DNA from: Pyropia yezoensis | Lineage: Eukaryota > Rhodophyta > Bangiophyceae > Bangiales > Bangiaceae | DNA length: 64,000 nt | Assembly: GCA_009829735.1 (NCBI GenBank) | Contig: CM020618.1 | Span: 34,510,894 to 34,574,893 of the forward strand | Direction of reading: 5' to 3' | Shown: positions 1,578 through 58,658 of the stretch, one piece after another | How positions within the stretch are numbered: position 1 is the stretch's first letter | Layout of the letters: the number at the start of each line of letters is the position of its first letter | The notes under the pieces: generated by a model | Databases searched by the model: none | Told to the model about the DNA's origin: nothing | The model's input: the letters and a program-made list of their open reading frames with translations, nothing else | Translations under genes and position numbers: made by a program

Positions 1578-2148
1578 TGTAGCATCCCTGGCCCCGACTT
1601 GGCGCCAACCCGGGACTACAACCAGAGGGCACCAGGTGCCAGAACACGCCCGCCGTGTGGTGATGGTTGGCGGCCGTGGCCCGTGCCCGGCGCTGGGATG
1701 CGGTGGACTACGCTATCCACACGTGAGAGAGGGATTTCTGATGGGTTTTTGCATACTTGTGAGGGACTTGATTTGAGAGAATTGGAGTGTGAGATTAGTG
1801 AGTGGAAATAGAATTAGTAGTGATAGAGGCCCCCGACCTGACGAGGTTAGACTCGGGTCGGGGCCACTCGGGGTTATGGGGGGGCTACCTGGCCAACTTG
1901 CCGAGGCTCCCCCAGATGCACGTTAAGAGGGACAGCTAGGCGCCCTTGGCCCGCGCCCTCAGGAAAAAGACAACTGCGGGTTTGCTTTCCTCTTCCCCGT
2001 GTGCACTACCGTGCGTATCTGTTTGCTCTGCGAGCAGGCACGTGAGGCAACAGGCATACCATTCTCGTAGTTCCCCTTTCTGTGTTACCTGTCCCTTTCC
2101 CCCGAGGGATATTGACACGTGTCTGAGAGGATCGAGTTTTATACCACA
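1578..2148 (+). repeat. 5' LTR of element 1
   Basis: Direct repeat of 10664-11234, both 571 bp. It starts TGTAGCATCC and ends ATACCACA. A TTTTATA stretch at 2137-2143 lies only a few bases before the end, so I do not call it a promoter TATA with confidence. The LTR carries a short palindrome-like segment with CCGACCTGACGAGG and CTCGGGTCGG around 1833-1863. Confidence 0.95.
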
Positions 2149-2152
2149 TATT

Positions 2153-2360: not shown

Positions 2361-4121
2361 ATGGCTACCTTCCCTGGCACGACGGTGCCCGAAGGAGTAG
2401 ACCCCGCGTCCTTTGACGCATCCCTGGTCACCGCGGGGGACGGTGCCCAACCCGGCGTCCTCCCTACGGGTGAAGCAGACCTGGGTGTGACATCCGGTAG
2501 CGGACTGGAGTCTACAGGCGGCCAAGCACCTCCTGCTCCCGTTCCTCCGGCTGTTCCTCCTGTGGGAGCCACCCCGGGGTCAACGGCGTTTGAGTCCGCT
2601 CGCAGCAGACGTCTCCCTCCTGTCGGTTCTACTCCTCAACCTCCAGGGATAGCCCCTGGTGTGTTTACTCCTGGACCCACGCATGGCAGCTGGGTGTATA
2701 CACCTCTTCCTGTGGGCACTAGCAGAGCCAGAGGCACCGCTGTGACTGGTTCTACGGGTCTCCCTGAGACCTCGACTCCTGGGACCGGCCAAGCTTTTCC
2801 TCCCCTTGCATCCTATGGGGCGGGGAGCTCTAAGACCAGAAACCGGAGTAGCCGGAGGCGTCGGCGTCGTCACCGTCGCTCTAGCACCAGCGAGACCAGT
2901 TCCTCCAGCTCTGAGGAGGTATATGACTGGGATGCATCTCCCGGTCCCGCCCGGCGCAGGCTAGTCGAGTTTGACTTCCCTGCCAACCAAGTGGGAGATG
3001 CCACCCTGGACAAGGTCACGTGTTGGGGTAACTACCGGCTGGAGAAATAAGACCAAGGTTACACCCGGAAGATGGCCAAGAAGATGGCATCCCTGAACCG
3101 GCGAATGCAGCCGAGCTTCGGTGGACATCCTAAGTTTTCCGGGAAGAGACCGGCGCTTATCTTTGCCTTCCTGCGCCGGTTTGTCAAGGCATGCAATGAC
3201 AACGATGTGTCCGAGGGCAAGGCTCTCTACCTCCTGGTTAACTTCATGACCGGAGAAGCCGAACAGCGGTTTGCACAGGTTCTCCCAGACTCTGCCGGAC
3301 ACATTGTCAGGCGTACCGTTGGGAGATATCCGGAGGCGGTCAACTGGCTTCTGTCCAACTACGCTGAAGCGGACTCCCTGCGTAAAGCAGTCGGCAGGCT
3401 GAACCGGGAAACCATGGAAAGAAAAGAGACTCCAGAGGCCTTCGCCCGTCATGTCCGGGAGATGAGCGAGGCTTGTGGCAACGTGTACCCTGAGGACAGG
3501 CTCGAGATGATTTTCTCGGAAGGGCTTCCTGAATATCTTCAAGTAGATGCGGAGAACTACAACCAGGAACATCAAGAACATACCTTCCAGCAGTTGATGG
3601 CCTACACCCAGGGCAAGTACTGGCAAGCCAAGGCCCTCCAAGCTCCCATGGTATCAACTCCCAAGCCGTTGTCGCGAGTTCGTCCCGGACCCGACAAATA
3701 TAAGGGAGGTGATAGCCCTGTACCGGTACTCGCAGTTGGCGAGGCCTCACCCGTGGGGTCAGGGGACAAGTGGGGCGGCTTCGTTTCTAAGGAGCAACCT
3801 TCCCTGGTCGCCCCCAAGCAGGTCAAGAACCAGCGGTTCCGGTCTTGCTGGCTGTGCCAGAAGGAGGACCACATGTCCTACCAGTGCCCGACCATTCCCA
3901 AGGATCTCCAGGAGAAACTCAAGCGTCAAGGACTGGTGTTTGCAAAGGCGATCAACTGGGCCGACCGGCGAGCACCCTCCAAGATGGACAAGGCACAGGT
4001 ACACGCAGTCCGAGTGGCAACCTTACAGAGCATTACGGAGGCTCTGGCAAGGAAAGCTCCTACGGACTTTGATGTGGAGACCGAAACCTCTAAGGACTCC
4101 TCGGACCCGGGAAACGAGTAG
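2361..4121 (+). pseudogene. gag: Element 1 gag, with one internal in-frame stop
   Basis: Structural polyprotein of the Ty3/gypsy particle. The frame starts at ATG 2361 with a Pro/Ser/Thr-rich N-terminal region and an Arg/Ser block (SSRRRRRRHRRSS), is cut by TAA at 3048-3050, and continues in the same frame to TAG at 4119-4121. The second part (first ATG 3072) holds the retrotransposon Gag/capsid region (LNRETMERKETPEAFARHVREM) and a CCHC zinc knuckle of the form CX2CX4HX4C (CWLCQKEDHMSYQC). The stop could be a plain nonsense mutation, or the two halves could be separate proteins, with capsid starting at 3072. The gag end overlaps the pol frame and carries a slippery heptamer. Confidence 0.85.
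4109..4115 (+). promoter_or_regulatory. Putative -1 ribosomal frameshift site, GGGAAAC
   Basis: The heptamer G GGA AAC is phased exactly as X XXY YYZ in the gag frame (codons GGA 4110-4112 and AAC 4113-4115). One GAG codon and the TAG stop follow. A one-base backward slip enters the pol frame, which has no stop from 4094 to 6613. GGGAAAC is a known -1 shift heptamer in some retroviruses. I did not identify a downstream pseudoknot. Confidence 0.7.
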
Positions 4122-6616: not shown

Positions 6617-8210
6617 ACACCTGAAGCTCATCAACCGGTGACCATTCACCGGATGCCGGGGGCACAACTGACGGATCCTCAATGCTTGGAGCTTGGCCAC
6701 GAAATGGACCTGAACCGGAACAGTCGTTTCTCCGAGTCTACAGATGGACTCCTGGTACGGGTGTCACCCTTCGATGGGGCAACTCAAGTCTATGTACCCC
6801 AAAGTCTGCGAGCTGACATCCTACGCCTGGAGCACTCGTCTCCTCAGGCCGGACATCCTGGCATCAATCGGATGTATGCTTCAATGCGACGACATTACTA
6901 CTGGGAAACCATGGCTAGCGACGTCCATAAGCACCTGGAGGCTTGTGTCTCTTGTGCAAGGAACCGGTTGTCCCAGAGGAAGAAGACTTCTAAGCTACGC
7001 CTATTCCCGGCGGCGAAGCCCTTTGCAAGCTTAAGCATGGACATCCTGGGGCCCCTACCTGAAACATCCAGCGGCAACATATACCTGCTCATCATTTGTG
7101 ACCGGTTCTCCAAGTTCACTCGAGCAATCCCGCTGAGGACCAGTACGGCTCTGGATGTCACGTCAGCCTTTCTGCGAACACTGGATAGCTGCATACGGCC
7201 CTCCAGACTCCGTCTTAACAGACAATGGCCCCCAGCTTGCATCCCTGTTCTTCCAAGGAGTCTGTGACCTGATGGGCATCAAGAACTTGTTCACCACGAC
7301 GTACCACCCGCAAACGAGCGGCCAGGTGGAACGATTCAACCGGACCCTAGTGGATATGCTACGGCACTACGTGGAGGAGCACCAAGAAGACTGGGATGAG
7401 CTCCTGGCTGTCCTCACTCTAGCCTACAACTCCCGAGTTCACCGGACAACGGGGGTCGCTCCACTCGACTTTGTCACCCCAAGGCGGCTGACCAACTTCT
7501 CCCTGGAAAGAATACCAGACGGACTCCAGCCTGCATTGAAGTCAGGTCCCAAGGCCGAGGATGAGTTCCTGGAACAACTGAAGCTCCTGCTCCCTAGAGT
7601 CAAGGAGTCAATCTCAAAGACCCAGGAGCGATACAAGCGGGACTATGACGAGGGGAGTCCGGGAAAAGAACAAGGAACTGGGTGGTGGCGACTGGGTTTT
7701 TGTGGACAACCATAGCAAGACCCGGGGGAAGCTGGACTCTAAGACGGATGGACCTTATGAGATTCTGAATACGGATGGCTGGACCTTTTTCTAGACGTGG
7801 ATGGCTCCCCGTACCGGGTGAGCAGCGACCATGTCACCCGAGCTCCACCGCCAAGCAAACGGGACTTGACCGTGCGCAAGCGGACCGCAGTACCCTGGCT
7901 ATCCCAAGAAGCAGGCCGGGAATATGTCTACGTCAAGTTTGTCGACCATGCCTGGAGAGACGGGCGCTTGTACCTGCGAGTACGCTGGTTCGGTTTTAAC
8001 CCGGCAGATGATACCTGGGAACCCTCAAACCGGTTACCCATCGCGGACGTCTGCGCCTACACGCGACGGAACGGGATTGAGGGCACTCCGGTGGCCAGAG
8101 CCGGCAAGATTCTGGAATCAGACTCGGAGGAGGACCAGGAGGACGGGACCGATCAAGACCCTCAGGACGAGCCGAGCTCACCCGCAACGGATGCGGAACA
8201 AGAGGATTGA
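6617..8210 (+). pseudogene. pol: Element 1 pol, part 2: integrase and chromodomain, frameshifted
   Basis: Continues in the pol frame after the stop at 6614-6616. The HHCC zinc-binding part (HSSPQAGHPG...CVSCARNR), the first catalytic Asp (SMDILGPLP), the second Asp (LTDNGPQL) and the Glu (GQVERFNRTL) are recognisable. The frame shifts near 7175, again near 7655 and again near 7790. The last part (frame of 7797-8210) ends in a chromodomain-like segment (LYLRVRWFGFNPADDTWEP), the hallmark of chromoviruses that target chromatin. A Glu/Asp-rich tail follows. With three shifts it cannot yield an intact integrase without repair or recoding. Confidence 0.88.
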
Positions 8211-8355: not shown

Positions 8356-10473
8356 CTAATCCCGGCGCGGACGCTGTGCCGCGGGAGCGTCCTCCAGCGC
8401 TGCCTCCGCGGCACGACGGGAACCGGAGGAAGGCGGGATGACGTAGTGCGGTGGGCGCGGTGCATCCAGGTATGACGCCATCGGAGTAGTACCGGTAGTT
8501 GCCGGGCGCTCCCGCTCATCCAGATATGCCTGGCGGCGCCCCTGGAAGCCAGTGAAGGTCTCTGACCACTGCTGGGCCAAGCCATGCCGCGTCAAAGTCG
8601 CCAGAAGTTCGCCAACTACCGGGCTGTCCGACATCTGGCCGCTGTCCGCGCAAGCAAACACCCGGTCAACCACGTTGTTCAAAACGCTGGCGTAAGTACC
8701 CAGCACCAGGGAAGACCCGACGCCTTCAACCTGCACCGGAAGACGACCCAGCTGGTCTTCAATCATACCGACGTCGTACTGGTCGCATGTCGGGCCACCT
8801 TGGTTCAGGTACCAGTCAGGCACCCGGAAGCGGGTAAGGCGCAGAGTCGGCGCCGGGATCTCGAACCGCCCCGAGGATGCCACTACCGGACGGTCCACAA
8901 CAGACCCAGAAGCCGGAGTCCCCAACTCCAGCGGAGGCACAGGGCCGCCGACGTTTTGAGAAGGCGCCCGAGGCAGAACGGCCGGAGTAGTCGGCGACCG
9001 CACGGCCACCCCCAGACTCGCGGCGGACAAGTGCGGTGCCGAAGGAGCTTGAAGCACCGGCACAGGCGGAGCGGAGCGCAAGCGCGCCGGCGACGGTCCA
9101 GGCGAAGCCACCGGCATGACAGGTGCAACAGGAGCAAGTGGAGCCGCCGCAGACGCCCGACCGACCGCCGCGGCCCACCCCGACTCTTGCACCGGCGGCC
9201 CAGTTGGCAGAAGATCGAAGGCGACCGGAGCAGGAAAGCTGCCTAGCTGCGGCCACCCCGGAAGCGGTGTCGCTAGCTGCACCTTGGCCGGAGAAGACTG
9301 GTAGACCACCTGCACCCAACCCGAGCCATCCCGACGCGGGCTGTTCTGGTCGGCAATCGCGTTCAAGAAGCTCCGGTCATGCACCGGCAGCCGACGCCGG
9401 AAGTCAATCATCGGCTGGAAAAGCTCCTTGTACTCCTCGTCCTGGCTGCACAGGAAGTCGACGGTCAACTTGTCGACAATCCAGACCATCAGGAGGTCGG
9501 GGAGAAGCCAAAGCCGGTTGGACACCAAGACTTCGTGGAGCCAGTGGTTGGCCGCCAAGACCGTCATCTCGGAGGTGTACATCATGTATGGGACCGAGTG
9601 GAAGAAGCCCTTGATCGACGCCTGGGTCAAGGCGTCCAAGAAGTACCAGGTGAAGGGGATGCTGGATGGAGCAAACCCGACGGGGATCTCGATTTCCTGC
9701 TGCTGCGGGATGACCTTGGGGTAGTACGCCGCCCGGTTAGCCTTGTCCAGCTTCCAGAACTCCTGATGGTTGCAGCTCACGAGGAAGTCACGCTGACGTC
9801 CGCGTCGCTCTCCTTGCTCCCGTGCCGGCGACAACTTGGAGTATTTCCGGGTCAGGAAAGGCGGCTCCAGAGCGACCATGCTCGGACGGGGATCGCAGTT
9901 CAGGCTCCCCGACCCCTTGAGCGCCTCGTCCCAAACCTTAAGTGCCCGGTGGACGTACCCTTCCTCCTCTGGCCACCGGAGAACGGACGCGGACACGCGA
10001 CGCTCGGTCAAGGGTAGATCCAGCACCAGCGCGAAGGGGAGATCCTCCAGACGAGCAACCCAAGAGGAACCCGAGAAGCTCTGGGAGCGGTCTTGTGCCA
10101 GGCGCATCTGGTCCGCCGTATGAAGACGAGTCTTGTCCATCTCGGTCAAGACCCCGCGCTGGAGTTCCTTGCGCCAGATGTTCAAGCAGTCCTGTTGGCA
10201 CTGGGCCGCGTTGGCGTTGCCAACCGCCGTGGAGTAGCGCCGGCCCGCCAGAGGATCCTGCCCAAGAAGCATCTCCGGGAGACCCACCGGGGGGGTCTCG
10301 ACCGGGTGCATCGCAGAAGCCAGGGGAGCCCGCTCCGTCCCCGCCGTGGCGACCGGCACCGGCACCGACACACGAGGAACCGGAGGCAGGAGAGGGGCGC
10401 GACTACCAGAGTTCTCTTCCGCAACACTCGCCGCCGGAACCACGGGCCCAGCTTGGATCTCGGAACTGGACAT
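8356..10473 (-). CDS. Antisense ORF of element 1 (unknown function, about 706 aa)
   Basis: A continuous frame on the strand opposite gag-pol, ending 145 bp from the pol end. I chose ATG 10473 (MSSSEIQAGP); the frame stays open up to 10671, into the LTR. It has a Pro/Ala-rich N-terminus, a globular middle with many aromatic residues (WYFLDALTQASIKGFF, LWLLPDLLMVWIVDKL), a Pro/Ala-rich linker, then a C-terminal helical block with WSETF. I do not recognise a known domain, and no TM helix is convincing enough to call it an envelope. Element 2 has an ORF of similar size in the same place and orientation. Its C-terminal block shows a weak but similar pattern (WY, then VL..V, then a Trp-Ser pair). 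That the frame is open while integrase is broken suggests selection or recent decay of pol. Confidence 0.7.
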   Translation of the reverse strand: MSSSEIQAGPVVPAASVAEENSGSRAPLLPPVPRVSVPVPVATAGTERAPLASAMHPVETPPVGLPEMLLGQDPLAGRRYSTAVGNANAAQCQQDCLNIWRKELQRGVLTEMDKTRLHTADQMRLAQDRSQSFSGSSWVARLEDLPFALVLDLPLTERRVSASVLRWPEEEGYVHRALKVWDEALKGSGSLNCDPRPSMVALEPPFLTRKYSKLSPAREQGERRGRQRDFLVSCNHQEFWKLDKANRAAYYPKVIPQQQEIEIPVGFAPSSIPFTWYFLDALTQASIKGFFHSVPYMMYTSEMTVLAANHWLHEVLVSNRLWLLPDLLMVWIVDKLTVDFLCSQDEEYKELFQPMIDFRRRLPVHDRSFLNAIADQNSPRRDGSGWVQVVYQSSPAKVQLATPLPGWPQLGSFPAPVAFDLLPTGPPVQESGWAAAVGRASAAAPLAPVAPVMPVASPGPSPARLRSAPPVPVLQAPSAPHLSAASLGVAVRSPTTPAVLPRAPSQNVGGPVPPLELGTPASGSVVDRPVVASSGRFEIPAPTLRLTRFRVPDWYLNQGGPTCDQYDVGMIEDQLGRLPVQVEGVGSSLVLGTYASVLNNVVDRVFACADSGQMSDSPVVGELLATLTRHGLAQQWSETFTGFQGRRQAYLDERERPATTGTTPMASYLDAPRPPHYVIPPSSGSRRAAEAALEDAPAAQRPRRD

Positions 10474-10649: not shown

Positions 10650-10662
10650 TAGGGAGGGAGCT
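10650..10662 (+). other. Polypurine tract of element 1
   Basis: TAGGGAGGGAGCT lies directly before the 3' LTR start at 10664 (TGTAGC). The position and purine content match the plus-strand primer of LTR elements. Confidence 0.7.
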
Positions 10663-10663
10663 A

Positions 10664-11234
10664 TGTAGCATCCCTGGCCCCGACTAGGCGCCGACCCGGG
10701 ACTACAACCAGAGGGCACCAGGTGCCAGAACACGCCCGCCGTGTGGTGATGGTTGGCGGCCGTGGCCCGTGCTTGGCACTGGGATGCGGTGGACTACGCT
10801 ATCCACACGTGAGAGAGGGATTTCTGATGGGTTTTTGCATACTTGTGAGGGACTTGATTTGAGAGAATTGGAGTGTGAGATTAGTGAGTGGGCATAGAAT
10901 TAGTAGTGATAGTGGCCCCCGACCTGACGAGGTTAGACTCGGGTCGGGGCCACTCGGGGTTATGGGGGGGCTACCTGGCCAACGTGCCGAGGCTCCCCCA
11001 GATGCACGTTAAGAGGGACAGCGAGGCGCCCTTGGCCCGCGCCCTCAGGAAAAAGACAACTGCGGGTTTGCTTTCCTCTTCCCCGTGTGCACTACCGTGC
11101 GTATCTGTTTGCTCTGCGAGCATACACGTAAGGCAACAGGCATACCATTCTCGTAGTTCTCCTTTCTGTGTTACCTGTCCCTTTCCCCCGAGGGATATTG
11201 ACACGTGTCTGAGAGGATCGAGTTTTATGCCACA
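10664..11234 (+). repeat. 3' LTR of element 1
   Basis: 571-bp copy of 1578-2148. It starts TGTAGCATCC and ends ATGCCACA. Differences from the left copy are mainly single transitions, such as GTGCCCGGCGC versus GTGCTTGGCAC. Confidence 0.95.
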
Positions 11235-34955: not shown

Positions 34956-35003
<48 letters not shown>

Positions 35004-47934: not shown

Positions 47935-48297
47935 TGTAGCACAATAGGAATCCGTCGCACGTCCACTCTCAGGGAACACTCACCAAGGGGGATCGGCACC
48001 AACGTCACCGGGAGGCCAAGGTTGCTGTCCTTGGAGCGCAAGCCACGGGACCAAGATGGGAGCCCAAATGGGAGGGGTTTGCTGTTCTACCTTGGCCGGC
48101 GGTGGATTCGCCGCCGGCCCCCACGTTATAAACCCTCGGAGACACTACTAACTACCCTCCACCCCAAGATGCAAGTCCCTCTGGTCATACGTAACTTGTA
48201 GATACCGTGACCAGTCCGGACTCTCAAATTGAAAGCCAAGGATTAGAAGTAGCCCCCCTAACATTAGGGTCACAATACGGCCAACCATATTGCTACA
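47935..48297 (-). repeat. 3' LTR of element 2
   Basis: Matches 58296-58658 over all 363 bp with four mismatches. Because the element is on minus, this copy is the 3' LTR, and its plus-strand TATAAA faces the antisense ORF. Confidence 0.96.
48094..48132 (+). promoter_or_regulatory. GC hairpin plus TATAAA in the 3' LTR, facing the antisense ORF
   Basis: A perfect 9-bp stem (GGCCGGCGG at 48094-48102, CCGCCGGCC at 48111-48119, 8-nt loop) is followed 8 bp later by TATAAA at 48127-48132 on the plus strand. Transcription from here would run into the ORF starting 757 bp downstream. On the minus strand the same site reads TTTATAAC, so the box could serve both directions. The other LTR has the same arrangement (TATAAA at 58488). 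Confidence 0.5.
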
Positions 48298-48298
48298 T

Positions 48299-48309
48299 AT
48301 CCCCCCCTT
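48299..48309 (-). other. Polypurine tract of element 2
   Basis: On the minus strand TAAGGGGGGGATA directly precedes the 3' LTR start at 48297. Confidence 0.7.
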
Positions 48310-48888
48310 AGATTCCGCCCGTCCTCGGGTCGAGTTGCATTCGGGATACCGAATGTAAGTGGGTCGCGTGACCGTTTACCAGTCGGGTGGGGCTTTGCGC
48401 CCCGTCGCGACAGACACCCCTTTTCGAGGTTGTCTGAGGGGGGTGCCCCCCTTTGTGTGGTACACACACGATCCGTTTTCCGGACCGTTAAATTCCCGAT
48501 GCGGGTTCTGTTCACGACCCCCCTTTCCGAGGGGTGGTGCAAGCGGATCCGCCACCAGGTGTCTGGTGGTAGGGGAGCCCCTCTCGTGTTACCGAGTGAA
48601 TGGGGGCGGCCGCTCCCGCTTTTCGCGGGGGCGGTTTCGGGGTGAACCCCTCTTGGTTGCCCCGTACGGGGGTGTGGCCCCCGCCCGCCCAGGTGCCTGG
48701 GTGGAGCCCGTTCGTAGCCTCGTGGAGCGCGGGTCAACCCGCGCGCCTGCGGCGCTTCTCGTCGCCGTTTGTGGTCATAAGCGCGGGCGCCCGCGCTTCC
48801 CTGGCTCGTCCGCGCGAGCGTTCCTCGTACCGGGTCGAGCCGGCCTCGGCTTTTCTGCACGGGGCGCCCCTGCTACCCCGGTTGCACC
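48310..48888 (+). other. Leader region of the antisense ORF in element 2
   Basis: About 580 bp between the 3' LTR and the antisense ATG. Shorter plus frames overlap it, but none has a recognisable product. It would be the long 5' leader of an LTR-driven antisense transcript. Confidence 0.4.
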
Positions 48889-51258
48889 ATGTCGGACCCC
48901 CAGGTACCCGGGGGCGAGGACGACCTCCTGCCTGAAGAGGGGGAAGAGGTGATGGTGGACGACGTTCCCGTCTCCGCCACCGCCGCCGAGTGCTTCCTAG
49001 CGAGCTCGTCGGAGGACGAGGACGACCGGGTGACCGTTCGTGTGGCCCCGGAAGGCGCGCCGGGCGGGTTGTCGTCCGTGTGTAGCGGCACGACGGCTCC
49101 GTCGGGTGGCGGACAACCGCGTGCAGCGGTGGCTTCTACCGCTTCTCCTCCGGCGGCCCGGATGGCTTCTGTCGCCGGTACCGGCGTGGCTCTACCTCAA
49201 GACGGTGTCGCCGGCGTGGCGGATGGTGGTGGCGGCACCCCGGCCAGTCCGGCGGGTCAAGACGGCGCGGGTGCCCGCCCGGTTGGTGTGTCCGCTGCGG
49301 CGGGTAGCGGGTCTACCCGTGCTGCCCCCGTGGTACCCACGTCGGGTCCGGGTGGCGGCGATGCTCTGCCCGCGGTGCCGCGGGCGTCTGGTGGTCAAGG
49401 TGGGTTTACACCGATGGCAGTGGACTCCGGTAGTTACTCCGGGCGGGCGCCCGCCCTTCTTCTTCCTCCTCGGCCGCGTGCGACTCCGGCGCCGGCCCCT
49501 CTTCCGGTGGGGCATCCCCCGGCGCCCCCTATTCTTCCTGGTCCTGCCCGGGTTGCCCCGTTGGGTGGCGGCGTCGCCGTGAGGGCGGGTCAACCCGCCA
49601 TGTCGATGTTTGACTTGGTGGCTCGGGTTCAAGGCCTGACTGTGCAAGAGTCAATGGAGTCCGATGGGCGGATGCGGGTGGACTTCCACCTGCCCCATCC
49701 CCGTGGAGAGTCCTCCCGGCGCGTCAAGGTGGACCCGAGTTGGGAGCGGGAGTTGGTGCGGCTGGTCAACCAGCCGAACGCGGTGCGGGTGGAACACCAT
49801 TGGATCCTGAGTCAGCCGGACGACCGGCATGCGCAGCTCTGGCGCACCCGGGTGGTACGGGGTGAGTTCTACCTCGACCCCGCCTTCGGGGTATGCGACC
49901 TGATTGCTCCCGCTTTACCGCGGGAGGTTGACTACCCGGCTAGTGCACGGGGGATTGCGGCGGCGGCGGAGCCGGTTGCGTTTGGGGAGACGGTGGGCGA
50001 CACCGGTCGGTATCCTGACTTCGATTATTACCCGGGGGTATCCCCGTATCTGTCGTTGACGGCTCCCTACCCGCCTATGGCGGGTTTGAAGTCGGCGTCG
50101 AGCTGGCGACGTAACCATGGTGTCATGGCGGATGCGTTCCGCACCGATATAATGTGTGCGTTGCAGACCGGCAACGGTCGTGCGCCGGTATACACTCCCG
50201 TGCGCCCGCCTCTGTGGCAGGAGGGGTGGGAACCCGCCCCTGCTTTCCGGTTTGACACCGGCTCCTGTCTCCGATACTTCGGGAGTGTGTTGGCCTCCCG
50301 GCCGGTCCACCCGTTGCAGGGTACCTTCACCCTTGAGGTTACCCTCGGGCAGGCTTCTTCCTTCTTGCTGTCCGTCCGCCGGCAGGGGCGCCTGTTTCAT
50401 CTTCCGACGGGTGTCCGTCGGCACATCGCGCAGTTGGGCGTGGACCTGATAGCCGCCAAGACCGGGTTGGCCCGGGAGTTCGAGGCCCTGCTGGCTGTTC
50501 ACGATGCCGTGAACTGGGCTGGGGTGTTGGCCCTTCCCCCGTACCGGGACCCGCAGGCTGGGGCTACCCCCTTGCCTCGTCACTCGTTGCGTATCCGGCG
50601 TACTCAGCCGGGTGAGCCTAGTTGTCATGGGTGGGCGTCCACCGAGGCTGTTGCTGACTTGGGTATTCCCATGGTTATCCATGACCCTCTACAGGTCCTT
50701 GCCCCGTGGTTCGGTAACCCGATACCGGCGGCGGTTGGCCGTCGTCCCCGAGAGTGGGGCTCTGCGGGTGGGGAGCGTGAGGTGTCCCGTCGTCGGGCGG
50801 AGCCCCGCCGGGGTTACGGTGGAGCCCCTTCGGTGGGGTCCTACCGGGCCTCATATCAGGCGCCACCGGCTCCGGTGGTGGCCGTGTCGGCTCCTCTGGC
50901 TCCTCTGGCTGCGCCAGTGTCCCCTCCCGCCCCTGTCATACAAGACGGGAGTCCCCGTCTCTGGTATGAGGGCGTTGACGCCCTTGTTGCCCGCGCAATG
51001 CGGGAGAGTCTCTCTGTTAGCTGGGGGGATATCCCCCCAGGTGCTGCGCTGGTTGGGTCAGCGCGTTGCTTCGGTGGCGTGCTCGACCGCCTCCAGAGAG
51101 CTCTGGAGGACGTGGAGGCTGGTCGCAGCACTCTCGTCCAGCTATGCACCGAGGTAACTCGGGTGATTGACCGTCGTGAGATTGCCGACCGGTGGAGCAC
51201 GGAGGTATACGCGCTTACGCGTGAGTGGCCTCCCTCGGGCAGTGGGTCTACCCACTGA
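48889..51258 (+). CDS. Antisense ORF of element 2 (unknown function, 789 aa)
   Basis: ATG 48889 (MSDPQVPGGEDD) opens a full-length frame to TGA at 51256-51258. An acidic N-terminus is followed by about 200 Pro/Ala/Gly-rich residues, then a structured middle from about residue 240 (MSMFDLVARVQGLTVQESM, FHLPHPRGESSRRVKVD, WILSQPDD, LWRTRVVRGEFYLD, YFGSVLASRPVHPLQG), a Pro-rich linker and a helical C-terminus with DRWSTEVYALTREW. I recognise no domain. Size, position, orientation and the order disordered-core-linker-helix match the antisense ORF of element 1, and both C-terminal blocks carry a WS pair after a leucine-rich helix. Convergent with pol, 452 bp apart. Unlike classical env genes it has no signal peptide or TM segment. 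Confidence 0.8.
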   Translation: MSDPQVPGGEDDLLPEEGEEVMVDDVPVSATAAECFLASSSEDEDDRVTVRVAPEGAPGGLSSVCSGTTAPSGGGQPRAAVASTASPPAARMASVAGTGVALPQDGVAGVADGGGGTPASPAGQDGAGARPVGVSAAAGSGSTRAAPVVPTSGPGGGDALPAVPRASGGQGGFTPMAVDSGSYSGRAPALLLPPRPRATPAPAPLPVGHPPAPPILPGPARVAPLGGGVAVRAGQPAMSMFDLVARVQGLTVQESMESDGRMRVDFHLPHPRGESSRRVKVDPSWERELVRLVNQPNAVRVEHHWILSQPDDRHAQLWRTRVVRGEFYLDPAFGVCDLIAPALPREVDYPASARGIAAAAEPVAFGETVGDTGRYPDFDYYPGVSPYLSLTAPYPPMAGLKSASSWRRNHGVMADAFRTDIMCALQTGNGRAPVYTPVRPPLWQEGWEPAPAFRFDTGSCLRYFGSVLASRPVHPLQGTFTLEVTLGQASSFLLSVRRQGRLFHLPTGVRRHIAQLGVDLIAAKTGLAREFEALLAVHDAVNWAGVLALPPYRDPQAGATPLPRHSLRIRRTQPGEPSCHGWASTEAVADLGIPMVIHDPLQVLAPWFGNPIPAAVGRRPREWGSAGGEREVSRRRAEPRRGYGGAPSVGSYRASYQAPPAPVVAVSAPLAPLAAPVSPPAPVIQDGSPRLWYEGVDALVARAMRESLSVSWGDIPPGAALVGSARCFGGVLDRLQRALEDVEAGRSTLVQLCTEVTRVIDRREIADRWSTEVYALTREWPPSGSGSTH

Positions 51259-51414
51259 GAAGGGCTATTGTTTGTGAGGGAGAGGTCCCCGGTATCCCTT
51301 ATGGTGGCCGGGTAGTAGTGAGTATAAACTCATCCCCCGCTGGGGCGTTTGCATGATACCATGCCTGCCATTGGGGAGTACCCCGTCCGACTTCTTCCGG
51401 TTGGTTCATGCTTG

Positions 51415-51664
51415 GGGAGGTCATCCTCCCTCACTTTGTGTCTTGGCTTGGGGAGGTCATCCTCCCGTGTAAGCCCCCTAGTTACTTCGATATTATCGAA
51501 GTTAGCCTTTACCTTTAAGTTAACTTACTAAGGTTCAGGTTTTACTTAGTTATCTAAGCTTGACTCTACTTAGTTGCCTAAGCTTGGTTCGACTTAGAAA
51601 CCTAAGTCTGACTTGACTTAGAAGCCTAAGTCTGCCGTAACCATATCACACCCTACTTAGTAGG
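51415..51664. promoter_or_regulatory. Hairpin ladder between convergent pol and antisense ORF
   Basis: Eight perfect short inverted repeats: GGGAGG-TCAT-CCTCCC at 51415-51430 and again at 51451-51466; ACTTCGA-loop-TCGAAGT at 51484-51502; four CTTAG-NNNN-CTAAG hairpins starting at 51545, 51569, 51593 and 51617 (exact 24-bp period; loops TTAT, TTGC, AAAC, AAGC); and CCTA-CTTAG-TAGG at 51652-51664. Stems are constant while loops vary. The array is symmetric, so it would fold in transcripts of both strands. A bidirectional 3'-end or pausing element is a reasonable guess. Confidence 0.7.
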
Positions 51665-51710
51665 TATAAGCCTCACCCCCCAACAGCCGAAGTCGGTGTC
51701 GGTTGGGTTG

Positions 51711-54700
51711 TTACACTAGGCGTCGTCGCCTCATGTAAGGCATGAGGAGTTGGCGGGGTATATTTGCCGCCTGTTCCCAGGTGGGTGAGTCGTATCCGAC
51801 CCACATAACCTTGACGTACCAGGGTCCTGGTAGGTCCGGGTCGGTGTGTCCGACCACGCTCTCTACTTGGTATGGAAACCCATCCGGTCCCACCGGGTCA
51901 TCTGACCGGTGGGTTGTAAGAGCTTCATGTAGCAACCCAGCCGGTACCGGCTGAGGCTGTTCCGGCTTCGGAGCAGGTGTGACATCATTCACACTGGTGC
52001 GTTGGATCTCCGTATCGGAGTGTAAGATGACAGAGTGGTCATCTCTGTGGAGAATCTGGTACGGTCCCTTGACCGGTTGCATGAGCTTGTTCCCCCGGAA
52101 ATTCTGGTGTCTGATATAGACCCAGTCACCTGTTACCAGGGTTGCGTTGCGCACCCGTAGTCGGGCGTCGAAGTTCTTCTTGTATCGAAGTTGTGTTCTG
52201 TCAAGGGCACCCTTGAGCTTAGGAATCATCCACGATAGCTTGGCCAACCAAGCTAGGTGTATACATTCGGCCGGTCGGCCTTTCGGTGTATCATACCGAG
52301 TGCACCTGCCTGGCGGCAGCGTCAGGTTACCGACGCCTAATGGCATGACCCATTCCAGTGGGGCGATGTTGGTACTCCGATGTGGCCTGGCATTGTATGC
52401 CAGGGTGAGTACGGAAAGAAGCCTGTCCCAAGTGTTCGTGTGCTCTGCCACGTAGCACTGTAGCATCTTGACGATGGTGCGGTTGAACCGCTCCACCTGC
52501 CCGTTGGTTTGCGGGTGGTAGTCGGATGCCCGACGTGGTTCGATGCCGAACATGCCCAGGACCTTAGTGCAGAATGCTGACGTAAGGTTTGCTCCGTTAT
52601 CGGAGAGGAGTTGCTTCATGACTCCGTATGCACTGATCCAGTGGTCAACCACTGCGTTCATAATCGTGTATGCCGTATCATTCGGGATGGCTGCCGCTCG
52701 TGACAGCTTGGTGAGTCGGTCAGACATGACCAGGATGTACCTGTTCCCTTCTTCCGTTACCGGAAGTGGCCCGAGTATGTCGATAGCGACTTGCTCGTTG
52801 GGCCCATCGGGTGGGAATAGCTTCATGGCAGACGCCTGCCTATGTAGACTCATGCGGTTACGCGCACAGGGGTGGCATCCCCTTACGTGGTCGACCACGT
52901 CGACGGCCATTGCTGGCCAGTCGAAGAACCTTCGCATTGCTGCGAACATACGTGAACCCCCCGGGTGTCCGGCTGTAGGGTTCTCGTGTTCTCGTTCCAT
53001 GACGGCTGGCCGTAAGGACACGGGAACCACGACTTGATGTCGTCCATCGGCGGGTGCCCGCCGGTATATGAGTCCGTCTTCGTTCTCGGAGAAGATGCCG
53101 GCCGTACCGGCCAGGAGGTTAGCACGATGGCGTGTACAGTCATCGTCATTGGCCTGTGCCTCGCGGAAGTCTGCGAGGGTCAGTGGGCATGCTCGGTGTG
53201 CCATGGTATGGTCAACCATACCTTGCGTAGCGTTACCCACCATGCAGACCGGTACCACCGGGATGTCCTCGTCCACCGGGCGGGTATCCCCGCTCGGGGT
53301 GTCGAGGCGAGACAATGCGTCTCCGAGATGGTGGGTTGACCCAGCCTTATACACGGTACGGTAGTCGTGCTCGGCCATCTTCAGCCTCCATCGGGCTAGC
53401 CTCCCATGGCTATCGGAATCCTTGTCACCAAGGTTGAGGAGCCATCGTAGGGGTTCGTGGTCGGACCTCACGATGAACCTGGAGCCCTCCAGGTATGGAC
53501 GGAGCAGTTGCACTGCCCATATAACTCCGAGGCACTCACGCTCGGTGGCACTATAGTTACGCTCAGCCGGGTTGAGTGTCCGGCTGAAGTATCCTACCGG
53601 ACGTAGGTCCGGGATAACGTTATCGGTGCCGATCAACGTCTCTCCCTGCAACAGGGTGCATCCCACTTGTGTATCACACGCATCGACATCGATGACGAAG
53701 GTCCCCCGTCTGTGCGGTAACGCAAGGACGGGTGGGGATAGTAGGGCTCGCTTCAGCGTCTCGAATGCCTCCTCTTTGCTAGGCGAAGGGGGTTGGAGTA
53801 CCTTGGGCAAGGTACTGCTCGTAAGAACCGTTAACGGTTTAGCTATCCGAGCGAAGTCCTTGACGAACCTTCGGTATACGTTGCACATTCCCAGGAAGCT
53901 CTTGAGCTGCGTCTGGGTGTTAGGGAACCGGGCATCCCGGAGTTCCCGGGTATTGGCTTCGAGTACCCCTAGTTTACCAGGGGTTATCTGGTGGCCCAGA
54001 TACTCGACCGTCTGTTGGAAGAAGACGCACTTCTTCAGACGCAGGGTTACCCCGGCGTTCCGCAAGAGGGTGAGTACCTCGTCCACATGTTGCACATGGT
54101 CATCCATGTTACGCGAGAAGACGATAACGTCATCGAGGTACACTAGGCAGTTACGCCACTTCACCCCCGACAGTATAATGTCGATAGCCCGCTGGAATGT
54201 AGCGGGGGCGTTGGACAATCCGAAGGGCATCCTTAGGAACTCGTACACTCCACTGTGACAGACGAATGCCGTCTTGGGGATATCGTCGTCCGCCACCGGG
54301 ATCTGCCAGTATCCGGCATTGCAGTCGATGGTGGTAAACACCGTAGCTTCCCCCAGGGAGTCGATGCATTCATCCATCCTTGGTAAAGGGTATGAGTCCT
54401 TGTTGGTAACCAAGTTGAGGCGTCGATAATCGATGCAAAACCGAGGGGTTTGATCCTTCTTCGGTACGATAACGACTGGGGCACCCCACTCCGACATCGA
54501 TGGTCGTATCACCTTCGCTTCACTCATCCTCTTCACTTCTCCATCAACGATCTCTCGTTGCATAGGTCCCGCTCGGTGCGGTTGTGACCGGGCGGGGCGT
54601 GCGCCTGGTACCAGGTCAATACGATGTTGGGTTGCCCCAATGGTACCCAAGGCCCCGCCTGTCCACATGACGTCATGCTTTCTTAGCATTCGTCGTACCC

Positions 54701-55877
54701 CTTCGGCTACCGAAGGGGGAAGGTGGTCGAGGTCAGCCTCGGCCAGTGCCTTCAAGGCTTCTTGGTCCTTTGGCGGCATGTCCGCCGGAGCCGCCGATGG
54801 GCTAGGCTTCCCGTCATCGGGTTGCTGTCGCTCGGTGGTCTCGGCGACCGCCAGCACCTCAAGTGGTTCCACTTGACCTTCCTTGTCAGGGGTAAGGATA
54901 TCTCCTTCGTAGAGCTCGGCAATCCCGAGGATAGTTCCCTTCGGGAGGGTGACTGCCTTACGGCGATAGTTCGCCATCACTAGGAGGGACGACCCTCCTG
55001 ATGGGAGGTCTATGAGACCGTTGGCCATGGTCAACCCATGGCGCTTGTACGTCCGCAAGTTGGACTTGACTCTGCAGATGCCTGCGAGGTCACAGTTAGC
55101 CGGGAGGACTGTCTCCGACAACGGCTCAAAGCGAGTTCGCTTGGCCAACCGAAGTGTCTTAGGCTCGACACTTGCGTACACCTCAGCCACGTTAACGTGG
55201 CTCCCTTGTAGCGTCAGGTCCCTGAAGATAGCCGTGTGTCCTCGCTTCGTACCGTCGGCTTCTTGAAGCTCGACGGTCCTCCGGCCTGGCCGGATTGCAT
55301 CAACGTGAACGTTGATGAAGGTGCACCCCAGTATGCATGGCACCGATAGGGTCTCACACACCAGGAAGTCGACTTCCGTGGTGAGTTCCCCGATGGTAAC
55401 CCGCAGCGACATCGCTGCGGTCGTACGAATGAGGCGACCATTCGCGTCCCTGATGGTGGGTCCCCGAGTCACTCTGACTCGCGGAAGCCACTTGTCCGGG
55501 AGGGTATCCTTCCGGATAAGGTTGGGTCCAGCCCCTGTATCCAGTACAGGGTAGTACGATCGTGTCGACTGGGGGTCAACCCCCAGTGTGGCTGATACCT
55601 TGAAGTTCTCCAAGGTAAACAGCACGTGGCCTACACCGATATCCGGTGTAGCTCGGGCATCCTGAACAGGGCCCTTGTCTGGTTCCATGTGACGGGGCTT
55701 CCCGTCCTCTCCTCCCAACCTTGGAGGTTGGTCATCAATCCCCTGACGCCGTGTCGTCGGGGCCGGAAGTTGTACCCGGGGGTTGATGCGGCGTCGGCTC
55801 AACCGCGCTCTCCGTGGGGCTTTCCCCGCGGTACTCCGGGGTGGCTTGCTTGGGTTACCCCAGCGCCCCCCGGTCAT
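51711..55877 (-). CDS. pol: Element 2 pol: protease, RT, RNase H, integrase, chromodomain (1388 aa from first ATG)
   Basis: One continuous frame. Protease DTGAGPNLI; reverse transcriptase with RFCIDYRRLN, TIDCNAGYWQIP, MPFGLSNAPATFQ and catalytic YLDD; RNase H with DVDACD, ERECLGVIW, RSDH and LGDALSRL; integrase HHCC (AGHPGGSRMF...CHPCARNR) and the D-D-E residues in VAIDILGPLP, LSDNGANL and GQVERFNRT; C-terminal chromodomain (YVKVMWVGYDSPTWEQ). All catalytic residues are present. The frame continues upstream without a stop for 35 codons to the gag UAG, so ATG 55877 may not be the true beginning; expression as a Gag-Pol readthrough product of about 2120 residues is possible. Confidence 0.95.
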   Translation of the reverse strand: MTGGRWGNPSKPPRSTAGKAPRRARLSRRRINPRVQLPAPTTRRQGIDDQPPRLGGEDGKPRHMEPDKGPVQDARATPDIGVGHVLFTLENFKVSATLGVDPQSTRSYYPVLDTGAGPNLIRKDTLPDKWLPRVRVTRGPTIRDANGRLIRTTAAMSLRVTIGELTTEVDFLVCETLSVPCILGCTFINVHVDAIRPGRRTVELQEADGTKRGHTAIFRDLTLQGSHVNVAEVYASVEPKTLRLAKRTRFEPLSETVLPANCDLAGICRVKSNLRTYKRHGLTMANGLIDLPSGGSSLLVMANYRRKAVTLPKGTILGIAELYEGDILTPDKEGQVEPLEVLAVAETTERQQPDDGKPSPSAAPADMPPKDQEALKALAEADLDHLPPSVAEGVRRMLRKHDVMWTGGALGTIGATQHRIDLVPGARPARSQPHRAGPMQREIVDGEVKRMSEAKVIRPSMSEWGAPVVIVPKKDQTPRFCIDYRRLNLVTNKDSYPLPRMDECIDSLGEATVFTTIDCNAGYWQIPVADDDIPKTAFVCHSGVYEFLRMPFGLSNAPATFQRAIDIILSGVKWRNCLVYLDDVIVFSRNMDDHVQHVDEVLTLLRNAGVTLRLKKCVFFQQTVEYLGHQITPGKLGVLEANTRELRDARFPNTQTQLKSFLGMCNVYRRFVKDFARIAKPLTVLTSSTLPKVLQPPSPSKEEAFETLKRALLSPPVLALPHRRGTFVIDVDACDTQVGCTLLQGETLIGTDNVIPDLRPVGYFSRTLNPAERNYSATERECLGVIWAVQLLRPYLEGSRFIVRSDHEPLRWLLNLGDKDSDSHGRLARWRLKMAEHDYRTVYKAGSTHHLGDALSRLDTPSGDTRPVDEDIPVVPVCMVGNATQGMVDHTMAHRACPLTLADFREAQANDDDCTRHRANLLAGTAGIFSENEDGLIYRRAPADGRHQVVVPVSLRPAVMEREHENPTAGHPGGSRMFAAMRRFFDWPAMAVDVVDHVRGCHPCARNRMSLHRQASAMKLFPPDGPNEQVAIDILGPLPVTEEGNRYILVMSDRLTKLSRAAAIPNDTAYTIMNAVVDHWISAYGVMKQLLSDNGANLTSAFCTKVLGMFGIEPRRASDYHPQTNGQVERFNRTIVKMLQCYVAEHTNTWDRLLSVLTLAYNARPHRSTNIAPLEWVMPLGVGNLTLPPGRCTRYDTPKGRPAECIHLAWLAKLSWMIPKLKGALDRTQLRYKKNFDARLRVRNATLVTGDWVYIRHQNFRGNKLMQPVKGPYQILHRDDHSVILHSDTEIQRTSVNDVTPAPKPEQPQPVPAGLLHEALTTHRSDDPVGPDGFPYQVESVVGHTDPDLPGPWYVKVMWVGYDSPTWEQAANIPRQLLMPYMRRRRLV

Positions 55878-55982
55878 CCTTCCTCTTACTCGTTTCCCGC
55901 CCTTGGTAGGGTGCTGTCCGCCGGGACATCCGGCTGAGGAGGTGCCTCCTCGACGGCCAGTACTCCACCTGGAGCTGGCTGC

Positions 55983-55985
55983 CTA
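55983..55985 (-). promoter_or_regulatory. In-frame UAG between gag and pol (candidate readthrough stop)
   Basis: On the minus strand GGG UAG GCA; gag, the 35-codon linker and pol share one frame, with no other stop from 58076 to 51714. A G follows the UAG, as in gammaretroviral gag-pol readthrough. No downstream structure was identified. Confidence 0.6.
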
Positions 55986-58076
55986 CCCGGTGCGGGTCCG
56001 GGTGCTCTGGCGGGATACCCCCCGGGTGGATGCCTTGCGTTGCGCCGCTGCCCGCCGAGACTCCTCGGGGATGAGTGGGCAGGAAGACACCCAGTGCTGG
56101 GGATCCCCACACAACATACATCCGGACGTGCCGGTCCCTCCTTGAGTTCGCATCGGGGTAGCCCCGTAGCTGCGGTTGCCTCCCTCGGGCGCCCGAGTGC
56201 CTGCTCCCTGGTAGGCCTTGGGTCCTTGGGTCAACCGGAACATGGACTCCCCCAACCGGTTGGGTCGGCCCGCAATCTGCGGAGGTGCCTCCGTACGTAC
56301 TGCCCATGTAGGCAGGGGCTGGTGGGGGCTACCCGTAACCGGGGCATACCCCGTCGTCCGCACATACGGGACGCGCCGTCCCGCTCCCTCGTTGACCTGG
56401 AACTGGGTCCCAGCCGGGGCGATGTACGCTACCGTACCGTGCTCATCAATCACCGGCGTCGCCGGTAGCAACAGGTGGCCCTGTTGGTCAACTAGAGGTT
56501 CATCCTCGCCCGTAGGGGTATGTTCGGTCGCCACCAGTACTGGTGCGGCCTTACGTTCCACCTTCTCTTGCCTCGGTACCCGGGTAAGACTGGGCTTGCC
56601 TCCCTCACCCTTGGGCTTCGGGGCCAAGGCACACTCCGGGTGTAGAACCCGGTAGGCGTCCCCTAGGGACTTGCACATATGCATCAGTCGACTGAAGTTC
56701 GTCCGGGCCGTATTGGCTCCCCGTGCGGATATCCGCACGTAGTTGGGTACTCCTGCGAACAGGATGGCCCGTAGTTCCCCTTCTCCGAGGAGCTTCCCCA
56801 GCTCGTAGTCGAGCTCTTGAATCCGTCGTCCGAACATCTCCTCATCCTCCCAGCTCTGGGCGGTGGCAGTGCGCAGGGCCCGGTAGTGGTCCTCGCACTT
56901 GTCCTCACTGGGGTAACTGCTCAGCAGCTCCTTGGGGATCCCACGGTAATCCAAGGGGGTGGCCGTGACCCTCATTCCCGGCATCGGGGATGCCTGGCGA
57001 AGGATGCCTCGCACCCGTTCATCAACAAAGAACGGGAGGATCTCCAGGGCCATCCCCTCGTTAACGAGGGCCTTGTCCGCGGCTGCCTTGAAGCTAGTCA
57101 AGAAGCCGATGACTGCCAACGGGCGTCCGTTCGGCCCCCCGAACATAGGAACTCCCTTCATAAGGGTCTGCATAGAGCCGATCGCCGGATTCGACGTATT
57201 ACGCATCGATTCCGATACGGTGGTAGAGCGGTCCTCCAAACGATAACGTTCCGGAGTAAGAACCGACCGGAAGACCTCGTTGACGATCTCCGTGTCAGCG
57301 TCCTGGATATCCAGTCGCTTAGCCAGTTGATGAGCGAACTCATCGGACTCCATCCGCTTCTGTAGGCTCGCAGTTACCTGCGCGGTCATAGCTTCCACCA
57401 CTGAAGATGGTACTTCAGGCGTCGGCACCTCGGGAACCCGAGCTGCCTGGCCTCCTTCGTCGTGGGGATACTGTGAGAGGGTACCCCCTCCCCCAAAAAC
57501 CGACTCTCCACCGGCGTAAGTATCCGCCGGGTCGTGTCCGCGGAGTCCGCTTCGGGTGCTCCGAGCGTATCGCTCCGTGTGACTCCGTTCCAACTCTACC
57601 GACGAGTCGGATCCATAACCCATTGTGTCCGGGGGTTGTCCGGGAGTTGCTGCGCCGGGGTCGACCCCGGTGGACTCCGAAAGTATTCCGGCCGGCTCGA
57701 ACCGTACCGGTGTGGGAGGAACACGTCGGGGTCCCGTCGTGTGGCGTGTTGACATCAACACTGCCATCGCGTCCTCCGTCCGCTCCTGGCGAGCGTTGAG
57801 TCCGGAAAACCGGGCCTCGATGCGGGCCATTGATGCCATCAGGGAATCCCCTGGTGACGGAGGCGGCGGAGTGAGGTCGGTCGACGACAGTTGCGGGGGA
57901 CCCCCGCCTCCTGCCGTCCGAGCCGTGCCAAACGTCGATCCGCCACCGGAAAGCATTGGCGTCTCAATGTTGTCGATCGGGTTCCCGATCCCGGTTCCCG
58001 TAGTCACCTCCGGGGTCGGCGTCGACGCCGATCCGTCATCTCGAACGTTCCCCGTCTCTTGGGTAGCCATAGTCAC
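55983..58076 (-). CDS. gag: Element 2 gag (697 aa)
   Basis: ATG 58076 (MTMATQETGN) leads to UAG at 55985-55983. The N-terminal third is Gly/Pro/Thr-rich and disordered with a short helical segment (MASMARIEARFSGLNARQERTE). The middle (about residues 260-480) is the capsid-like Gag domain (SFKAAADKALVNEGMALEIL, YPSEDKCEDHYRALR, ELGKLLGEGELRAILFAGVP). A CCHC knuckle CX2CX4HX4C (CMLCGDPQHWVSSC) is near the C-terminus, followed by an Arg-rich end. The product would form the particle and bind RNA. Codon use resembles pol. Confidence 0.92.
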   Translation of the reverse strand: MTMATQETGNVRDDGSASTPTPEVTTGTGIGNPIDNIETPMLSGGGSTFGTARTAGGGGPPQLSSTDLTPPPPSPGDSLMASMARIEARFSGLNARQERTEDAMAVLMSTRHTTGPRRVPPTPVRFEPAGILSESTGVDPGAATPGQPPDTMGYGSDSSVELERSHTERYARSTRSGLRGHDPADTYAGGESVFGGGGTLSQYPHDEGGQAARVPEVPTPEVPSSVVEAMTAQVTASLQKRMESDEFAHQLAKRLDIQDADTEIVNEVFRSVLTPERYRLEDRSTTVSESMRNTSNPAIGSMQTLMKGVPMFGGPNGRPLAVIGFLTSFKAAADKALVNEGMALEILPFFVDERVRGILRQASPMPGMRVTATPLDYRGIPKELLSSYPSEDKCEDHYRALRTATAQSWEDEEMFGRRIQELDYELGKLLGEGELRAILFAGVPNYVRISARGANTARTNFSRLMHMCKSLGDAYRVLHPECALAPKPKGEGGKPSLTRVPRQEKVERKAAPVLVATEHTPTGEDEPLVDQQGHLLLPATPVIDEHGTVAYIAPAGTQFQVNEGAGRRVPYVRTTGYAPVTGSPHQPLPTWAVRTEAPPQIAGRPNRLGESMFRLTQGPKAYQGAGTRAPEGGNRSYGATPMRTQGGTGTSGCMLCGDPQHWVSSCPLIPEESRRAAAQRKASTRGVSRQSTRTRTG

Positions 58077-58276
58077 AATCAGTCAACCGACGTAACAATC
58101 ACCACGAATAAGAGAGCGAGGGGGTAGATTGGGGAGAGTAACAGTAGATCACAGTCAAAGGTAAAAACTGAACACAATCGATCAGGTCGCAACACCACGA
58201 GTACAAGAAAAGGACCGGATCCCTATCCGTGTGCCAGGGCCGAAGACGGCGTCACCACAAGGGTGACGGAAACCCG

Positions 58277-58294
58277 TCCCCTGCTGCTTCACCA
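58277..58294 (-). other. Primer binding site-like motif of element 2
   Basis: On the minus strand TGGTGAAGCAGCAGGGGA starts one base after the 5' LTR. It is 17 of 18 identical to the motif after the 5' LTR of element 1. Confidence 0.65.
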
Positions 58295-58295
58295 A

Positions 58296-58658
58296 TGTAG
58301 CACAATAGGAATCCGTCGCACGTCCACTCTCAGGGAACACTCACCAAGGGGGATCGGCACCAACGTCACCGGGAGGCCAAGGTTGCTGTCCTTGGAGCGC
58401 AAGCCACGGGACCAAGATGGGAGCCCAAATGGGAGGGGTTTGTTGTTCTACCTTGGCCGGCGGTGGATTCGCCGCCGGCCCCCACGTTATAAACCCTCGG
58501 AGACACTACTAACTACCCTCGACCCCAAGATGCAAGTCCCTCTGGTCATACGTAACTTGTAGATACCGTGACCAGTCCGGACTCAAAAATTGAAAGCCAA
58601 GGATTAGAAGTAGCCCCCCTAACATTAGGGTCACAATACGGCCAACCATATTGCTACA
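58296..58658 (-). repeat. 5' LTR of element 2
   Basis: 363 bp, same ends and hairpin-TATA unit as 47935-48297. Confidence 0.96.

Follow-up and report, generated by a model that had tools for sequence, protein, structure and literature searches.

Candidate antisense accessory genes between pol and the 3′ long terminal repeat of Ty3/gypsy elements in the red alga Pyropia yezoensis

Can a large open reading frame (ORF) that runs against the coding strand of a retrotransposon be a maintained gene of that element? The question is raised by a 64,000-nucleotide stretch of the Pyropia yezoensis (nori) genome (assembly GCA_009829735.1, contig CM020618.1, positions 34,510,894 to 34,574,893), referred to here as the window, in which two Ty3/gypsy elements each carry such a frame between the end of pol and the 3′ long terminal repeat (LTR). 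An initial annotation made from the sequence had located ORF1 of element 1 at 8356-10473 on the minus strand (705 codons) and ORF2 of element 2 at 48889-51258 on the plus strand (789 codons), and we find both the coordinates and lengths, and the common slot and antisense orientation relative to gag-pol, to be correct. Its proposal that an antisense accessory protein, or a regulatory transcript, has been conserved is supported by the open frames, by purifying selection, and by a relation of the two proteins through intermediate families. We consider it highly probable that ORF1 and ORF2 are coding accessory genes of one family, carried in reverse orientation in the pol-to-3′ LTR interval by several deeply diverged Ty3/gypsy lineages.

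Open frames and selection on their products

Both ORFs are antisense to gag-pol and thus not sense-oriented as env-like aORFs are. ORF1 begins with an ATG at 10473, and the frame itself stays open to 10683, within the LTR. Measured from stop to stop, the frames in the two post-pol regions extend for 825 and 767 codons, against maxima of 535 and 608 codons in 500 Markov-1 simulations each, and the remaining five frames of each ORF region contain 5-24 stops in the window copies. Length alone is nonetheless insufficient as evidence, because the window, in which GC content reaches 80%, is filled with many other long ORFs, some sets of which overlap across both strands; these are the features that would favor regarding ORF1 and ORF2 as chance open frames of a GC-rich genome that encode nothing. 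Such an account is opposed by a length beyond that seen in any of the 500 simulations for either element, and by the frame-specific selection and the homologues in other families and another species described below, and we regard it as negligible.

Further copies were sought in 107.5 Mb of genome sequence spread over 11 contigs, the three large ones measuring 43.59, 34.33 and 29.39 Mb, with the best 40 of 1126 first-look candidates being scored for ORF2 and the best 40 of 603 for ORF1. ORF2 is open from end to end in 24 of the 30 copies fetched, a count that includes the window's own copy and one, L030, that has no ATG; a single internal stop is present in five of the others and a frameshift in one. 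For ORF1, nine of the 22 copies fetched (from 40 listed) are open, so that other copies do keep both frames. The LTR is where expected in all of the ORF2 copies except L009.

Each variant among the copies was classed by its effect in all six frames, and the tallies were set against a null in which identical mutations were placed randomly on equal trinucleotides (300 simulations). Most shared variants, those found in at least two copies, presumably predate the last insertion, and most singletons presumably arose after it. In ORF2 (29 ungapped copies of 30) the shared variants comprise 30 nonsynonymous, 45 synonymous and no stop changes, where 49.5, 24.4 and 0.9 are expected, giving a ratio of 0.33; in ORF1 (15 ungapped copies of 23, eight with gaps or partial matches having been dropped) they comprise 40, 59 and 1, where 63.0, 34.5 and 2.2 are expected, a ratio of 0.37. 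Neither value was reached in any of the 300 simulations. ORF1 singletons are nearer neutral (0.87, with 21 of 300 simulations as low). The complementary frames score alike (0.40 for ORF2 and 0.38 for ORF1) because the wobble position is common to both frames, but these contain 20 and 11 stops, respectively, in the window copies; ratios in the other four frames are 1.2-2.7.

Codon phase was followed along the ORF2 loci. Over 30 copies, the counts of shared variants at the three codon positions are 19, 17 and 58 in ORF2 and, read on the strand of pol, 81, 20 and 30 in the pol end; in a set of 26 copies the counts are 19, 14 and 53 for ORF2 and 48, 6 and 11 for the pol end on the other strand, and those for the spacers and LTR are not significant. 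Between related antisense ORFs the ratio of nonsynonymous to synonymous substitution rates (dN/dS) is 0.17-0.34 across eight pairs, which are not independent, with dS up to 1.6, compared with 0.08-0.66 for the pol end in six pairs. The choice between purifying and neutral substitution, put forward as a check by the initial annotation, thus falls to purifying selection. By these substitution patterns ORF1 and ORF2 behave as protein-coding genes, with shared amino-acid variants depleted approximately threefold.

The region ahead of ORF2 is of a different character. The 591 bp between the LTR and ORF2 have 3.7% shared-variable columns without codon phase (8, 5 and 9) in 26 of the 30 copies; in the same copies the values are 3.6% for ORF2, 5.8% for the LTR, 6.6% for the pol end and 11.9% for the 452-bp spacer between ORF2 and pol, and the copies diverge outside position 47935, where 89% of columns have shared variants. 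The four copies left out (L004, L009, L028 and L030) have divergent or missing flanks, and the conservation hinges on dropping them, since the figure for the 591 bp rises to 15.7% with all 30. These features suggest, without constituting proof, that the segment is a candidate promoter and 5′ untranslated region (UTR) of the antisense gene; a scan for bacterial-type promoters gave no promoter-like sites, a result that is uninformative for a eukaryote.

A conserved stretch without codon phase is also what might be anticipated if antisense RNA alone mattered – as double-stranded RNA, by promoter interference, or as a long non-coding regulator – with the protein being incidental, and regulatory antisense RNA has been proposed for elements of this kind in the portions of the literature consulted (PMC7264820). 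The amino-acid selection in one frame, and dS values above 1 between families, argue against this, and we consider an RNA-only function very improbable, although an RNA role alongside the protein is conceivable.

Distribution of the gene and relatedness of the two proteins

To what extent is the gene found beyond these two elements? A survey independent of the ORFs was based on integrase (PF00665) matches, of which the best 150 of 3515 candidates were scored; 18 places, each with an open frame of more than 1000 codons, were picked down the list, and approximately 4.6 kb onward from each was fetched. In several of these places pol is followed by an antisense frame of about 550-725 codons, and the conserved core of the antisense protein is present in eight of the 18, in the antisense orientation every time (five of the eight were in the model). 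The gene is common to at least four integrase lineages of the P. yezoensis genome, and integrase identity across the carrier lineages is about 40%, lower for fragmentary rows. Neither this breadth nor the Pyropia vietnamensis relatives of ORF2 had been noticed in the initial annotation.

Some of the surveyed places deserve separate comment. L063 has an 883-codon antisense frame at 1951-4599 after pol with a weak core match (14.9 bits), and was not counted as a carrier; its sister, L068, has no core. Similarity to L069 is confined to the first 1.1 kb of L055 and the first 1.8 kb of L070, L057 shares short stretches with L056, and L059 is distant (18-29% integrase identity). Past their homology with L069, L055 and L070 have sense frames at oriented coordinates 1693-3885 (731 codons) and 2672-4453 (594 codons), which perhaps belong to neighboring elements or genes.

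In database searches ORF2 has five relatives in P. vietnamensis, four of them 33-59% identical over parts of the query and one (P0006) without a reported identity; P0003, one of the relatives, represents 19 sequences. ORF1 has one database relative, P0008, which is 91% identical over 83% of its length. P0002 and P0008, both ENA proteins, come from contigs of 2.9 and 2.3 kb, respectively, which might be transcripts.

The two window proteins can be linked through families that lie between them. BLASTP against a database of some tens of sequences connects ORF1 with L053, L056, L065 and L069 (26-27% identity, E 4e-12 to 2e-11) and with the L060/L061/L064/L067 group (E 1e-6 to 2e-4), and three members of that group match ORF2 (L060, E 4e-7; L064, 5e-6; L067, 1e-7), with no match listed for L061; identity of the antisense core across these links is about 20-27%. 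Profile-profile comparison of the ORF2 group with the rest gives a probability of 98%, with rows taken from the joint alignment. When profile hidden Markov models (HMMs) are built with the group in question left out and whole proteins realigned, ORF1 is found with E 3.5e-16, ORF2 with 2.8e-8, the P. vietnamensis relatives of ORF2 with 3e-5 and 6e-5, L053/L056/L069 with 7e-16 to 2.7e-20, and L060 and L064 with 4.7e-21 and 1e-20; among 302 decoys, made up of shuffles, reversals and other window ORFs, the lowest E is 0.032. Core-only versions on the joint alignment are stronger, if less clean (ORF1, E 4.3e-21; ORF2, 4.3e-13). A protein search with profile A3 returned one protein from the best 7992 candidates, and is silent as to absence elsewhere because it missed the known P. 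vietnamensis relatives. ORF1 and ORF2 are therefore, by these sequence comparisons, distant homologues in a conserved slot and not unrelated proteins.

The two proteins share a layout: an N-terminus rich in Pro, Ala, Gly and Ser (57% in ORF2 and 39% in ORF1) precedes a core of some 210 residues that looks helical, after which come a linker that is basic (isoelectric point about 11) and 58% Pro/Ala/Gly/Ser, and a C-terminal part. The 'WS pair' that had been noted in the C-terminal helix is indeed in both window proteins, but was rejected as a shared motif, as P0003 and P0004 of P. vietnamensis have RWEAT and the L053/L056/L069 alignment has no W. Pfam matches nothing above cut-off in ORF1, ORF2 or eight members of profile A3, and TRP28 (PF04195) is absent from the matches with E up to 0.1 for the two ORFs and up to 1 for the eight members; a PDB sequence search gave nothing convincing (best E 2.1 for ORF2 and 0.57 for profile A3). 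Matches of ORF1 to Rieske subunits (E 0.0065) run over the Pro/Ala-rich linker and were taken as composition. In AlphaFold2 models of ORF2, confidence (predicted local distance difference test, pLDDT) is above 50 mainly at the C-terminus, where ten-residue means from residue 712 are about 59-86, and fold comparison as a test of relation was dropped because the core models are of too low confidence to give meaningful matches.

A number of observations weigh against reading ORF1 and ORF2 as coding genes of one widely held family. Compared directly, the two proteins give an hhalign probability of 0.5%, and ORF1 against the ORF2 group, core to core, an insignificant 1.3%; shuffle tests (14, 278, 205, 56 and 308 of 500) are not significant either, so that of the profile comparison called for earlier it is the relation through intermediate families that stands and not a direct match. 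The link depends on those families, and the clean leave-group-out match of ORF2 is limited to residues 441-547. Mean pLDDT is 29 for the whole of ORF2 and 32 for its core with relatives. The copies tested for selection are the best matches to the ORF itself, which biases the level of conservation upward and leaves codon phase unbiased, and ORF2 singletons, while nearer neutral than the shared variants, are mildly depleted of amino-acid changes (ratio 0.77, with 2 of 300 simulations as low). Not every element has the gene, the core being undetected in nine of the 18 integrase places, among them L062 and L066, which are in the same integrase clade; moreover the 18 places are not 18 families (L060/L061/L064/L067 form one and L056/L065 another), and of the carriers L065 has a stop inside the frame and L067 a shortened frame. 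L058 has lost the gene start and core through a clean 1.6 kb deletion, flanked on either side by sequence about 96.5-97% identical to L069, and L054 is about 96% identical to L053 in both flanks with 1.8 kb, including the core, replaced by about 0.7 kb of other sequence. In the core tree, whose branches are long, L053/L056/L069 group with ORF1 and L060/L064 with ORF2 at 98/95 support; in the integrase tree, likewise long-branched, the deep forks are poorly supported (60/76), and together the two trees neither confirm nor refute shared descent. From the carriers in the survey, the deep divergence, the L058 deletion and the L054 replacement, we conclude that the antisense gene is, on present comparisons, common, old and losable.

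The same data can be read as independent or horizontal acquisition, in which lineages each took the gene from a common source, or exchanged it through template switching, rather than receiving it from one ancestor. The patchy presence among the 18 places is consistent with this, as are two trees that are not demonstrably congruent and a region that L058 and L054 show to be losable or exchangeable. Position and orientation are, however, identical in every carrier seen, and both the antisense core and the integrase are deeply diverged, and we think separate acquisition rather unlikely. A fuller version of common descent is that this is an ancient third gene that predates the split of lineages whose integrases are now about 40% identical, that its product has an undescribed fold and its own antisense control region, and that L058 and L054 rely on the protein in trans; we hold this combination to be plausible, if somewhat short of an even prospect. 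In both L058 and L054 the fetched pol end is still open, making them candidates for help in trans.

Possible function and comparable systems

What might such a protein do? A separate messenger RNA could be transcribed from an antisense promoter located either within the 3′ LTR or in the sequence ahead of the gene, and the protein it encodes might target the RNA, DNA or chromatin of the element itself; tuning sense transcription, assisting nuclear steps and countering silencing are examples. The general scheme would resemble that of maize Grande gene23 or of an antisense retroviral regulator. We put it forward as a proposal that is less likely than not. The alternative that the product is a structural or assembly protein, a second gag-like or env-like product and not a regulator, gains from the length of the protein and from a size and place as in env-like aORFs. 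Against it, splicing of the genomic RNA could not yield a protein from an antisense ORF. A search of the other frames of both window elements, those of gag among them, with the core HMM gave no match at E up to 0.01, and the lack of a Pfam match above cut-off likewise argues against a structural role, which we judge to be a minority prospect. Were the protein to counter host silencing, which is one possible job for it, it would be an antisense-encoded counter-defence gene of a retrotransposon.

In plants, antisense ORFs in this slot are a described class, aORF-3R, whose function is unsolved there according to the parts of the account available to us (PMC7264820), so that the precedent of plant extra ORFs invoked in the initial annotation applies to exactly this position. 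The nori genes resemble those of maize Grande (gene23), rice RIRE2 and Silene Retand in position, orientation, presence in many copies, protein-level conservation and a function still unsolved, as far as these are set out in the sections consulted (PMC7264820, PMC11963269). They differ in having a red-algal host, in the absence of the TRP28 domain from the members scanned, and in forming a protein family without a database match above cut-off; TRP28 is described in 97% of the clusters of plant Retand elements, and Retand as a non-chromovirus lineage, whereas the nori elements have weakly chromodomain-like integrase ends (PMC11963269, as excerpted). Outside plants, Boty of Botrytis cinerea has by description an antisense ORF between pol and the 3′ LTR (PMC7264820, likewise in part). 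What the antisense ORFs of LTR retrotransposons do is a standing question in plants, and here a separate eukaryotic lineage has the same arrangement with a different protein family and with selection on the protein, whose relatives come from two species and at least four integrase lineages. Gypsy elements therefore appear to benefit repeatedly from an antisense gene at this position.

HBZ of human T-cell leukemia virus type 1 (HTLV-1) is a bZIP protein, and no homology with it is expected. The likeness is that of an antisense gene of an LTR element, for which the 3′ LTR promoter and regulatory role of HBZ offer a model of function, as outlined in the parts seen of two accounts (PMC11963269, PMC7264820). 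Ectocarpus Sola1-1, a mobile element of an alga, similarly has an opposite-strand accessory gene, but in the available description it is not an LTR retrotransposon and has ParB-like and methyltransferase domains (PMC12477816). In the literature on algal and red-algal gypsy elements, no description of this antisense family was found in titles and the starts of abstracts; subscription papers fall mostly outside that coverage, and novelty is thus unproven. The nori genome offers near-identical copies in number, natural gene-loss derivatives and a cultivable host.

Anatomy of the two elements and their surroundings

The P. yezoensis genome is reported, in the portion of the description consulted, to be 65% GC with 48% repeats, the majority of which are LTR retrotransposons (PMC7423979). 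Both window elements have LTRs, gag and pol, with reverse transcriptase, RNase H and integrase domains above cut-off and a sub-threshold gag knuckle. Their designation as chromodomain elements in the initial annotation finds weak support, as PF00385 matches score 23.5 bits in element 1 (7941-8030, E 5.4e-5) and 14.3 bits in element 2, both under the cut-off of 25.1.

Table 1. Features of the two Ty3/gypsy elements, in window coordinates.
Feature	Coordinates	Strand	Basis
Element 1 5′ LTR	1575..2148	+	574 bp repeat with 10661-11234, 97.2% identical
Element 1 gag, 349 aa frame	3072..4121	+	zf-CCHC E 0.019, below cut-off; position ahead of pol
Element 1 pol, protease to RNase H	4250..6616	+	PF00077, PF00078, PF17917 above cut-off
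Element 1 integrase and chromodomain-like end, broken	6617..8210	+	PF17921 above cut-off; PF00665 below cut-off, two separate frames
ORF1, probable antisense accessory gene of element 1	8356..10473	-	705 aa, between pol end and 3′ LTR
ORF1 protein conserved core, residues 158-366	9376..10002	-	Core HMM 242.4 bits (ORF1 included in model)
Element 1 3′ LTR	10661..11234	+	Repeat with 1575-2148
Element 2 3′ LTR	47935..48297	-	Direct repeat with 58296-58658, 363 bp, 98.9% identical
591 bp preceding ORF2, candidate antisense promoter and 5′ UTR	48298..48888	+	Non-coding, conserved in most copies
ORF2, probable antisense accessory gene of element 2	48889..51258	+	789 aa, between pol end and 3′ LTR
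ORF2 protein conserved core, residues 334-545	49888..50523	+	Core HMM 255.7 bits (ORF2 included in model)
ORF2 protein C-terminal helical region, residues 696-777	50974..51219	+	AlphaFold2 pLDDT above 50 from residue 712
Element 2 pol (protease, reverse transcriptase, RNase H, integrase), 1388 aa	51711..55877	-	PF00078, PF17917, PF17921, PF00665 above cut-off; protease PF13975 below
Element 2 integrase chromodomain-like C-terminus	51750..51872	-	PF00385 E 0.041, 14.3 bits, cut-off 25.1
Element 2 gag with CCHC-like knuckle, 697 aa	55983..58076	-	zf-CCHC_2 E 0.068, below cut-off; position ahead of pol
Element 2 5′ LTR	58296..58658	-	Repeat with 47935-48297

In the window copy of element 1, pol is broken, with the integrase spread over several frames (6617-8210), and the antisense ORF1 is still open. 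Elsewhere in the window, inspection by eye found a voltage-gated ion-channel-like transmembrane stretch in a GC-rich ORF at about 22900-23500 on the minus strand, perhaps part of a host gene, and, in a repeat-rich ORF at 34206-35435 that is also on the minus strand and is perhaps a host recombination gene, a Walker A motif (GPPGGGKT) resembling that of RecA/Rad51.

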